Shown: positions 21,876 to 44,524 of the stretch, one piece after another
How positions within the stretch are numbered: the stretch's first letter is position 1
Layout of the letters: every line of letters begins with the position of its first letter
Assembly: GCF_001544355.1 (NCBI RefSeq)
Contig: NZ_BCQI01000013.1
Location: 1-64,000 of the forward strand
Length of the DNA: 64,000 nucleotides
Direction of reading: 5' to 3'
From: Alicyclobacillus acidiphilus NBRC 100859
Lineage (GTDB): Bacteria; Bacillota; Bacilli; Alicyclobacillales; Alicyclobacillaceae
Program-made: the position numbers and the translations under genes
The notes under the pieces: model-generated
The model's database searches: none
What the model was told of the DNA's origin: nothing
What the model saw: the letters and a program-made list of their open reading frames with translations, nothing else

Positions 21876-21918
21876 TCGACCTCACCAGGCCATCACAGAA
21901 GTAGGGCATCAAAAAGGC

Positions 21919-22053
21919 GGCCACTGCATGTATGCAGTGGCCAAATTCTATCGTTAGGGGGGTCAAGAAGAGATGCAATCGGCAATTGGCAATTGGCAAT
22001 CGACACTCTTCACTGCCTGACATCATCATAGCGTCGACAAATTGAATTTCCAT
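21919..22053 (-). other. Twin element copy A: short conserved transcript or micro-ORF ending in a terminator
   Basis: On the minus strand this begins ATGGAAATTCAAT (22053), passes CGCTATGATGAT and CAGGCAG, then TTCTTGACCCCC, and reaches the hairpin GGCCACTGCA/TGCAGTGGCC (21919-21942) before TTTTT. The same order recurs at 34531-34644. In both copies the sequence can be read as an ORF starting MEIQ and passing FLTPL. It lies in a 390-bp gap before tRNA-Leu. It may be a small RNA, a small protein or a mobile remnant. Confidence 0.5.
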
Positions 22054-22267
22054 TGAATTACACGGAATTCTGATGAACGAATGGCGAATTGGTGTGAAAA
22101 TGATTCTTCACGAACCACAAGCAACATGGTATAGTCGTTTGCGGCGGCCATTTTGCCAGATCGGCTCAGCCTGTCCACAACAGGTTGTTGCATGGGTTCT
22201 CGGATATTGACGATGTTGATTTGATGAATGGCTACAAGCGTAGTATAGTGTATGAACGATCTTGCAT

Positions 22268-22669: not shown

Positions 22670-22873
22670 GTGGGCACCGTCAAGAGTTACTCATCAAGAG
22701 AACTTATCAGCATGCTGGAAGCGAACGGCTGGGTACTCAAAGCGGTTGAGAGAAGTCATCACCAGTACATACATCCTAAAACGCGCAACAAAGTGACGGT
22801 ACCTCATCCGAAAAAAGACATCCCAGTTGGGACAGCGAGAAATATCCTAAAGCGAGCAGGGCTACTGGAGTAG
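22670..22873 (+). CDS. hicA: HicA-type mRNA interferase toxin
   Basis: About 67 residues with the HicA double-stranded-RNA-binding-like fold: VKSYSSRELISMLEANGW, the catalytic His block RSHHQYIHP and the end VTVPHPKKDIPVGTARNILK. HicA cleaves mRNA and is held inactive by HicB. The start is unclear. GTG 22670 touches the AGGAGG site, the homology start would be a GTC codon at 22679, and a TTG at 22643 lies inside the operator. hicB follows 23 bp later. Confidence 0.88.
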   Translation: MGTVKSYSSRELISMLEANGWVLKAVERSHHQYIHPKTRNKVTVPHPKKDIPVGTARNILKRAGLLE

Positions 22874-22896
22874 CTCTGCCGAAAGGTGGACTATAT

Positions 22897-23319
22897 ATGC
22901 ACGATTTGCCATCGAAGTACGTTTATCCCGCTATTTTTGATTACGCAGAGGATGGTATCTCCGTGGCGTTTCCGGACCTACCCGGTTGCTTTACGTGCGG
23001 ATCAAACGACATGGAAGCCCTGGACATGGCAAAAGAAGCGTTGGGTCTGCATCTCTGGAGTATGGAGGAGGATGGGGAGGAGATTCCGGAGCCAAGCGCG
23101 CCACTGGCCGTGCCTCATGAGGGGAATCAAATTGTGTGTCTTGTGGAGGTTTGGATGCCACCCATCCGTAGCCGGCTGACGTCGCGATCAACAAAGACGA
23201 CTGTAACACTGCCGCAGTGGCTCAAAGACAAGGCCGATGAACACCAGGTGAATTATTCTCAACTGCTTCAGAATGCGATAAAAACACACCTTGGATTGGA
23301 TGATACTCCACGGGGATAA
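22897..23319 (+). CDS. hicB: HicB-type antitoxin
   Basis: 140 residues. The N-terminal HicB fold is clear (YPAIFDYAEDGISVAFPDLP, CFTCGSNDMEALDMAKEAL, HLWSMEEDGEEIPEPS). The C-terminus carries a ribbon-helix-helix DNA-binding segment (KTTVTLPQWLKDKADEHQVN), as in the RHH class of HicB. It neutralises HicA and should repress the promoter at 22630-22658. ATG 22897 follows AAAGGTGG. Confidence 0.9.
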   Translation: MHDLPSKYVYPAIFDYAEDGISVAFPDLPGCFTCGSNDMEALDMAKEALGLHLWSMEEDGEEIPEPSAPLAVPHEGNQIVCLVEVWMPPIRSRLTSRSTKTTVTLPQWLKDKADEHQVNYSQLLQNAIKTHLGLDDTPRG

Positions 23320-34384: not shown

Positions 34385-34530
34385 AGCGAGTCTCTCCTCC
34401 TGCAAATTCCCGAAGAAGGGTTTTTGATGGGTGTTTATCGTCTTCTATCACCCTGTTTGGTCCGAGACTCAGCATAGCAAGACAGCATCAAAAAATCCTC
34501 ACAATCCGTCGATGAATGGCGAAAAAAAAG

Positions 34531-34644
34531 TGACCGTTGGAAAACCAACGGTCAAAGTGTGATACACAAGGGGGTCAAGAAAAGGAATTGCAACTGGCGC
34601 AACCTGCCTGGGATCATCGTAGCGAGGAAACATTGAATTTCCAT
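34531..34644 (-). other. Twin element copy B: short conserved transcript or micro-ORF ending in a terminator
   Basis: Same order as 21919-22053. The minus strand begins ATGGAAATTCAAT (34644), passes CGCTACGATGAT, CAGGCAG, TTCTTGACCCCC and ends in the hairpin TGACCGTTGG/CCAACGGTCA (34554-34531) with TTTTTTTT (34529-34522). The ORF would be 30 residues (MEIQ...FLFLTPLCITL). AAAGGA precedes it. It fills much of the 336-bp gap between the esterase and the divergent O-antigen-ligase-like gene. Confidence 0.55.
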
Positions 34645-34720
34645 TGAATCGTTCCTTTTCTATGGATTCGCGCGCCTGATTTGATATGATCGTGGTAACC
34701 TACCAGTTAGGGGATGACGA

Positions 34721-43247: not shown

Positions 43248-44303
43248 TCAGCCCCAGATGAACTCCACTTGCCAGCCGCCTGAACCGCCGCTGCCGGAGG
43301 GCATGCCGTATGATTGTTGACCAAATCCGCCCCAGCTTCCACCTGGGAAGATGTGATGACCATGACGGTATGGATAACCTGGCCATCCTTGTCCCCAACT
43401 TCCGCCGCCTTGTCCCAACGACGGAATCGTGGTATCGGTCGACGTCGTGGTGGTCGTGGAGAACGATTCACCGTCCGAATTCAGTGATGACGGCGCGATA
43501 ATCACATTGCCGAAATTGTCCACCAACGCAATAGGCTGTACTTCGTTGCTCGACGCGTTGATTGGATTGCCGTTGACGGTGGCGTTGGTGAAGTTGACCG
43601 TACCAGCGTCGGCCAACGGATACAAATCGTTGTTGCCATCTGATGGATCTTCACTGATCCACTCCGCCGAAGTGCCAATCGCCGACGCGTATGTAGAGTT
43701 CAGCGACACGGTCACTGTCTTCGACTCAGTCGTGCCAGACGGCGTCGTCACGTTGACCACGAGATTCCAGTTCGTTCCGCTTCCCTTCGAAATACTTGCG
43801 GATATGGTCGAGCCGACCGGCACCGACATAATGTTGGTAGCTGCTGCCGGAAGCTTCTCCCAGAAAATCTCGGCGTCTTCCTGTCCGTTCGTCATTTGTT
43901 CAGTGGTACCCATTTGCAGCAGGTCTTGATTTGTTACACCGCCGAGGCCAATCCACTGTGCGGCGACCGATCCGTCGTCACCCGTCACATTCGGAACAAC
44001 CCAGCTGCCAGTTACACTCGTGTACGGATTCGATTGCGAAGATGGTGTCGCGATATATCCACCCCAGTTCGCCGATCCCTGGGTATCGCTCGGGATCGAA
44101 ATCGAGTCCGAAGTATCACTGGCGGCCGTCGTGTTAAAGCGCCCAGCATACAGACGACCCGGATCGTTTGATGCCACCGACGCCGCCTTGGTTCCTTGCT
44201 GCTCCGCCGCGGAGGATGTCCATATCCATGATGAGCTCACCCCAATCGCGCCTACGGCCGCAAGGCATCCAATGAATGGTATGTGTCGTTTTCGAAGACG
44301 CAT
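43248..44303 (-). CDS. Secreted G1-family peptidase (eqolisin)
   Basis: 351 residues with a signal peptide (FIGCLAAVGAIGVSSSWIWT). The mature part matches the glutamic peptidases: SANWGGYIATPSS, YTSVTGSWVVPNVTG, AAQWIGLGG (Gln) and GTSAEWISEDPSDG (Glu, the catalytic dyad with Gln). The C-terminus adds a Gly/Ser/Trp-rich tail (GQGGGSWGQGWPGYPYRHGH). Eqolisins work at acid pH, so this is an extracellular acid protease that suits an acidophile. A TTG or GTG start is not needed; ATG 44303 is used. Confidence 0.85.
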   Translation of the reverse strand: MRLRKRHIPFIGCLAAVGAIGVSSSWIWTSSAAEQQGTKAASVASNDPGRLYAGRFNTTAASDTSDSISIPSDTQGSANWGGYIATPSSQSNPYTSVTGSWVVPNVTGDDGSVAAQWIGLGGVTNQDLLQMGTTEQMTNGQEDAEIFWEKLPAAATNIMSVPVGSTISASISKGSGTNWNLVVNVTTPSGTTESKTVTVSLNSTYASAIGTSAEWISEDPSDGNNDLYPLADAGTVNFTNATVNGNPINASSNEVQPIALVDNFGNVIIAPSSLNSDGESFSTTTTTSTDTTIPSLGQGGGSWGQGWPGYPYRHGHHIFPGGSWGGFGQQSYGMPSGSGGSGGWQVEFIWG

Positions 44304-44524
44304 GGATGACGCACTCCTTTTTCTCGATACTATTTACATAGTCATTGTAGAGCGATTTCCTTGAAAAAAGCTAAAAAATACAAGATTGCCGGGGGGCACG
44401 GGCGCGTAACGGTCAAAACTTCCCTGTGCGCCCCCGATCACGGAGGCTGGCAGCTGACACGGGTTACGCAGATTTATCGTATCTCCTGTATAATCAGAGA
44501 GTCAGTGGTTTCAGGAGGTAGGAT

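Follow-up and report, generated by a model that had tools for sequence, protein, structure and literature searches.

Copies A and B, two short elements lying on one strand 12.6 kb apart in the 64,000-nucleotide stretch of Alicyclobacillus acidiphilus NBRC 100859 analysed here (the window), are very likely small RNA (sRNA) genes. On the whole reading, which we consider probable, they are paralogous stand-alone genes for trans-acting sRNAs that are under two-component control and block translation initiation; most likely they are members of a large and apparently unnamed family present in many Gram-positive bacteria. A promoter repeat with its spacing, recurrence in relatives, a core predicted to be mostly unpaired and a covarying terminator emerge directly from the computations. 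The features of both copies are listed in Table 1.

Table 1. Features of copies A and B in the window.
Copy	Feature	Position	Strand	Remarks
A	Direct repeat TTCAAT-GGAAA-TTCAAT	22041..22057	-	11-bp period, over -35; predicted OmpR-family response-regulator operator
A	-10 box TATGAT	22025..22030	-	exactly 10 nt past repeat; putative transcription start near 22018
A	Predicted sRNA, ~108 nt	21911..22018	-	next gene behind convergent (DUF1275)
A	Predicted 5' hairpin GAAGAG..CTCTTC, inverted GATTGCC/CAATTGC repeats	21967..22011	-	
A	TTCTTGACCCCC, putative C-rich anti-Shine-Dalgarno stretch	21958..21969	-	
A	Intrinsic terminator stem-loop	21918..21943	-	T-run 21911-21915
B	Direct repeat TTCAAT-GGAAA-TTCAAT	34632..34648	-	
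B	-10 box TACGAT	34616..34621	-	10 nt past repeat; putative transcription start near 34609
B	Predicted sRNA, ~88 nt including terminator and T-run	34522..34609	-	
B	TTCTTGACCCCC, putative C-rich anti-Shine-Dalgarno stretch	34570..34581	-	mostly unpaired by prediction
B	Intrinsic terminator stem-loop	34531..34554	-	T-run 34522-34529

Position and similarity of the two copies

A sequence check of the window found both copies on the minus strand, exactly where the earlier note had described two look-alike elements. They share an ungapped 46-nt block of 85% identity (22013-22058 in A, 34604-34649 in B), a likeness that exceeds chance: with copy A as a blastn query against the window, copy B was recovered at E = 2.3e-9. 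Read along the minus strand, both comprise ATTCAATGGAAATTCAAT, CGCTA-GATGAT, CAGGCAG and TTCTTGACCCCC, followed by hairpins and T-runs, and TTCTTGACCCCC has only two zero-mismatch sites in the window, one in each copy. Copy A is flanked by a divergent tRNA-Leu gene on one side and by a convergent DUF1275 gene behind it, and copy B by a divergent O-antigen ligase gene and by a co-directional alpha/beta hydrolase gene starting 115 nt downstream. Elsewhere, within the interval 22680-23319 of the window, a HicB-like antitoxin gene occupies 22897-23319 on the plus strand, preceded by a small frame that resembles HicA by eye.

Allowing up to three mismatches, a 45-nt A/B pattern has two sites in the 3.86-Mb genome of the strain, namely A and B, and is absent from the genomes of 40 relatives; an exact pattern including TCTTGACCCC found B alone among 15 genomes. 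A degraded mobile or repeat element present twice, one of the options of the earlier note, would account for two similar copies at this distance on the same strand, but it is highly improbable, because there are only two close copies and, with B as the query, no plasmid matched and the phage matches (nine records) were short and weak (E 0.4). Neither several near-identical copies nor a mobile-element context was found for A and B, their likeness is limited to the promoter, core and terminator region, and diverged copies in other contexts retain the architecture.

Promoter architecture

The common start that the earlier note ascribed to the two copies exists, but it is ATTCAATGGAAATTCAAT, with an ATG that lies upstream of the -10 box. 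The sequence ATGGAAATTCAAT sits within the TTCAAT-N5-TTCAAT direct repeat, upstream of the predicted -10 box, so that its ATG should not be transcribed; the RNAs should begin near CAGGCAG. A micro-protein (MEIQ...FLTPL), also proposed in that note, would make use of the open frame running from ATGGAAATTCAAT in both copies (78 aa in A, 30 aa in B), and a frame of 22 residues that closes with FLTP exists in one relative (L165). Yet an ATG is found at this place in only 7 of 33 TT-type promoters (described below), once with an immediate stop, MEI occurs in A and B only, and the frames differ in length, whereas conservation centres on promoter, core and terminator. Since the ATG is part of the promoter repeat and is not conserved, we rejected the micro-protein as scarcely credible.

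PhoB-type class II promoters carry a repeat over the -35 region and leave 10 nt to the -10 box. By analogy, the layout of A and B appears to be that of promoters activated by OmpR/PhoB-type response regulators, and control of the two copies by a response regulator is likely. A phosphorylated OmpR-family regulator would bind TTCAAT-N5-TTCAAT over a poor -35 (the best hexamer of A is TGGAAA) and, once bound, would activate the promoter with its -10 box 10 nt further on. In the genome of the strain, TTCAAT-N5-TTCAAT-N10-TANNAT occurs without mismatch in A and B only, while up to two mismatches give nine matches, against two in a reversed control. These nine are A, B, a third copy (copy C) and six more that were assessed by ORF listing, one of which (contig C19) later appeared as a weak model match (E 0.37).

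Core and terminator of the predicted RNAs

The RNAs would comprise, in order, a 5' hairpin, a UUGACCCCC stretch and a terminator; that of copy A folds with a z-score of -5.0, and both predicted RNAs carry UUCUUGACCCCC, antisense to Shine-Dalgarno sequences. Hairpins and T-runs end both copies, as the earlier note had observed, and its suggestion of selection on the terminator is borne out. The stems of A and B are unlike in sequence and both pair, and the terminator stem covaries: across six members, 58 of 59 cells are paired (98.3%) and 7 of 10 pairs are altered on both sides, a pairing and covariation reached by none of 500 shuffles, slid versions giving 29-58%.

Among the distinct family sequences, CCCCC is present in 95 of 100 and GACCCCC in 69 of 100. 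In the 80 of these in which a pattern found both the box and the C-run, the CCCC core has a mean unpaired probability of 0.92, against 0.53 for other G/C positions before the terminator, and is predicted to be unpaired above 0.8 in 68; for the core of copy A, the prediction is that its two leading C are mostly paired (unpaired 0.24 and 0.25) and the next three unpaired. In 67 of 100 family members a C-run has a CAT at most 14 nt to its 5' side, where shuffling predicts 26.6, a contrast inflated by relatedness among members. Copy A has a CAT within 14 nt of its core, and copy B has none near it. The complement of the core, AAAGGGGGUCAAAUG in many TG-type members, amounts to a Shine-Dalgarno sequence plus a start codon.

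The C-run would thus pair with the Shine-Dalgarno sequences of target mRNAs and, in many members, the neighbouring CAU would pair with the start codon, a pairing that would block the initiation of translation. Anti-Shine-Dalgarno pairing by A and B has the better than even odds of a working assumption, and because the C-run with CAT is the pattern seen in the streptococcal csRNAs (discussed below), a translation block is the likeliest mode. That the sRNAs titrate a protein and do not pair with mRNA is improbable: a nearly invariant core would also suit a protein-binding site, and the target search gave no clear enrichment, but a C-run with CAU in many members is what is expected of RNAs directed, as the csRNAs are, against translation initiation regions. 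This search for AGGGGGTCA near ATG in seven genomes was crude: of its 39 matches, 14 were antisense of the sRNAs themselves (author's count) and were removed, leaving 25 against 20 in the control. The candidate targets, all named by eye, include purA, which came up in two genomes (L108, L134), and a few genes seen once each.

Family members and distribution

With a model built from A and B (R1), copy C was detected in the same genome (C7:16772-16894, E 0.02), three relatives yielded further copies (E 2.8e-6, 0.007 and 0.19), and a match in genome G007 (E 0.5) has the repeat and the -10 box without a terminator. The six copies all possess the repeat, the 10-nt gap, a TANNNT box, UUGACCCCC and a terminator opening GGCC (GACC in B). 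R1 had a poor automatic structure, and the terminator stem was used for the covariance models R2 and R3; the E-values of all three models are rough. R2 matched 36 of 40 genomes of the taxonomic family at E <=0.5. R3 was built from 72 R2 matches, the sources L006, L057, L061, L075, L079 and L085 being left out, as were four further rows by a tighter E-value, and its members are therefore partly chosen by promoter likeness.

With R3, 57 of 59 genomes of the order were matched at E <=0.01 (45 of 45 of those of good quality), with up to nine matches per genome. A class sample yielded 110 of 250 genomes at E <=0.001, 22 of them from the same order, and a phylum sample 18 of 199 at E <=1e-4, 12 of which lie outside the class; on inspection, two of these 12 matches (L213, L214) proved to have retained the repeat, the core and the terminator. 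Searching with a DNA pattern of the TG-type core gave 23 stretches from named genomes, of which 17 are titled Alicyclobacillus, two Alicyclobacillaceae, three Bacillota and one is labelled Lachnospiraceae. Diverged copies are thus common in relatives, as a covariance-model search proposed in the earlier note now shows; the absence of further copies from related genomes, named there among the refuting outcomes, did not occur, and a small RNA family, one of its three options, is strongly supported.

Further copies in the genome of the strain lie at C7:16767-16894 (copy C, a strong match), C15:18142-18272 (E 0.02 with R2, 3.2e-12 with R3), C25:19821-19936 and C19:17522-17639, the last two being weak. 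Copy C is located 114 nt upstream of a co-directional gene with globin and NAD-binding domains, flavohaemoglobin-like. Such spacing (115 nt at B, 114 nt at C) would accord with a cis-acting leader or attenuator, in which the downstream gene has the RNA as its 5' leader and the terminator is regulated, and TG-type copies are often followed within ~200 nt by the start of a co-directional NUDIX gene. We hold a leader to be unlikely, if less so than titration: the gene behind the terminator is convergent at A, L022, L024, L027 and L060, and TT-type copies have differing downstream genes. In several Alicyclobacillus genomes, a tandem pair of two different sRNA types, one of them with two C-runs, is found behind an Nramp-like transporter gene (L082, L084, L087, L088, L045, L036, L070, L028).

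Promoter classes and gene neighbourhoods

After merging, 103 rows gave 95 distinct promoters and 100 distinct sequences. The arrangement half-site-N5-half-site-N10-TANNNT stands at a fixed place in 79 of the 95 distinct-promoter members, a count that is partly selected because the models contained the promoter, and in 72 of the 100 by a stricter pattern. The other 16 members are without a box in the fixed register, in several of which it is shifted, and L144, L146 and L150 among them have a box with no -10 box 10 nt on. The half-sites vary jointly, as in TTCAAG/TTCAAG of copy C and TGCAAC/TGCAAC of L022. Among the 79 promoters, 33 were listed as TT-type (TTCAAN), a list that includes L072, a register slip of the TG-type, and the divergent L050; the 46 others, with the divergent L163 among them, are nearly all TG-type (TGTAAY).

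The WalR (YycF) box is given as TGTWAH-N5-TGTWAH in PMC4168254. Within two mismatches, 45 of the 46 promoters on the TG list fit this box (two exactly, 36 with one mismatch, seven with two, and the remaining one has six), whereas 32 of the 33 on the TT list depart from it at four places or more; A and B, with half-sites TTCAAT, do not fit it. The common descent of the two types rests on short shared stretches, and their origin could be partly convergent.

NUDIX and RapZ genes are found downstream of TG-type genes at many loci of Alicyclobacillaceae (clusters of 23 and 25 loci). For the TG-type copy of the strain itself (L086), this neighbourhood was checked by Pfam; the preceding gene there is not trxB but encodes a TPR-repeat protein. 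Four loci from other families (L143, L145, L151, L215) are located between a pyridine nucleotide-disulphide oxidoreductase gene, which we take by eye to be trxB, and a NUDIX-like gene, confirmed by Pfam for L143. In another class, the L213 element stops ~90 nt short of a regulator gene, for which YycF is the top NCBIfam model (317 bits, below the cut-off of 340; the counterpart in the genome of the strain, L176, scores 322 bits).

To our knowledge, few trans-acting sRNAs are common to several Gram-positive genera. Given matches in 57 of the 59 order genomes and in numerous other Bacilli, a family united by its promoter layout and seed would fill the place of a broad regulator so far missed, and the WalR-like box of the TG-type suggests an RNA branch of the essential WalKR system. 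More tentatively, at somewhat less than even chances, an ancient WalR-controlled sRNA gene beside trxB, NUDIX-rapZ or walR may have been copied repeatedly and, in Alicyclobacillales, passed to a TTCAAN two-component system. Each genome would thereby have gained several sibling sRNAs that silence messages by masking Shine-Dalgarno sequence and start codon; such an unnamed RNA arm of envelope signalling would rank with the trans-acting sRNA families most widely spread among Gram-positive bacteria.

Relation to known small RNAs

The closest parallel is offered by the csRNAs, sRNAs of streptococci controlled by CiaRH, as described in PMC3091779: the CiaR box TTTAAG-N5-TTTAAG, placed over the -35, always keeps its third T, second A and final G, 10 nt separate the repeat from the -10 box, a terminator follows within 250 nt, and an unpaired stretch is complementary to the Shine-Dalgarno sequence, with an anti-start-codon CAU beside it in 53 of 61. 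Like A and B, the csRNAs have an N5 direct repeat, 10 nt to the -10 box, a terminator and several similar copies per genome, and an unpaired stretch complementary to the Shine-Dalgarno sequence is predicted in the A/B family too (in A only in part); both copies also have their terminator within 250 nt. They differ in the box (TTTAAG against TTCAAT), in the seed, which is UUGACCCCC in the A/B family, and in their hosts (PMC3091779). Because the CiaR box is absent (TTCAAT twice in A and B; TTCAAG in copy C, still with C for the third T), we did not file A and B as csRNAs; by analogy, they would be sibling sRNA genes of a csRNA-like kind. The statement of the earlier note that no known family is recognised therefore holds for Rfam at threshold and not for the layout, which is that of the csRNAs.

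Other systems also have traits in common with the A/B family. The Listeria sRNAs LhrC1-5, Rli22 and Rli33-1, of which LhrC1-5 are under LisR, are likewise multi-copy, and LhrC-type CU-rich regions bind a Shine-Dalgarno region (PMC5880928). The LhrC/rli22 model of Rfam had no match in the window and none in the A/B loci up to E 5, and among 29 loci it touches one far member, L145 (27.6 bits, cut-off 80). RoxS/RsaE, dependent on ResD/SrrA, has C-rich regions, two with CCCCUUUGUU, that pair with ribosome binding sites; C-rich pairing regions, response-regulator control and conservation between genera would be common to it and the A/B family, whereas its ResD-like site lies near -65 and not over the -35, and its C-rich regions are several (PMC4409812). 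Rfam scans of the window and the 29 loci returned no row for RsaE/RoxS and no sRNA family at threshold; sub-threshold rows comprise suhB on B (22.7 bits, cut-off 41) and on L045, RsaF on copy C (25.5 bits, cut-off 60), isrK near L028 and a betaproteobacterial sRNA at L055.

By position alone, the TG-type loci L143, L145, L151 and L215 can be likened to uncharacterised RNAs seen by RNA-seq in Bacillus, which share their gene neighbourhood: in B. amyloliquefaciens, the gap between yvcI and trxB holds an RNA described as a potential homolog of an sRNA of B. subtilis (PMC4634765), and in B. licheniformis an independent transcript of 52 nt was placed between trxB and yvcI (PMC3871023). With these RNAs on record, the TG-type has probably already been seen as an orphan transcript. 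A literature search that covered few subscription papers found no description of the family, its promoter layout, its TT-type members or its spread.

Candidate regulators and regulon members

A box matrix for TTCAAN, built from 21 TT-type promoters, was applied to the 17 PF00486 loci of the genome of the strain. It gave no convincing box there, the best score being 9.8 against at least 23.5 in the training set, and identification of the regulator through autoregulation was dropped on these scores. One loose match to the box lies 200 nt upstream of L173. A Pho box was likewise set aside for A and B, as none of 15 PstS-like loci of relatives has the TTCAAT repeat by the pattern used. Three of these loci (L097, L098, L099) carry TTTACA-N5-TTTACA upstream, which fits the Pho box, and the presence, 1.2 kb from relative D, of a PstS-like gene that scores under the family cut-off was taken as chance.

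Within the window, TTTTAG-N5-TTCAAG-N10-TACAAT occurs on the minus strand at 44344-44376, closely preceding a Peptidase_A4 (acid protease) gene at 43248-44303. This box scores 16.5, whereas 10 block-shuffled windows reach 14.8 at most, and the gene is a possible, if weak, candidate for a protein-coding member of the A/B regulon.
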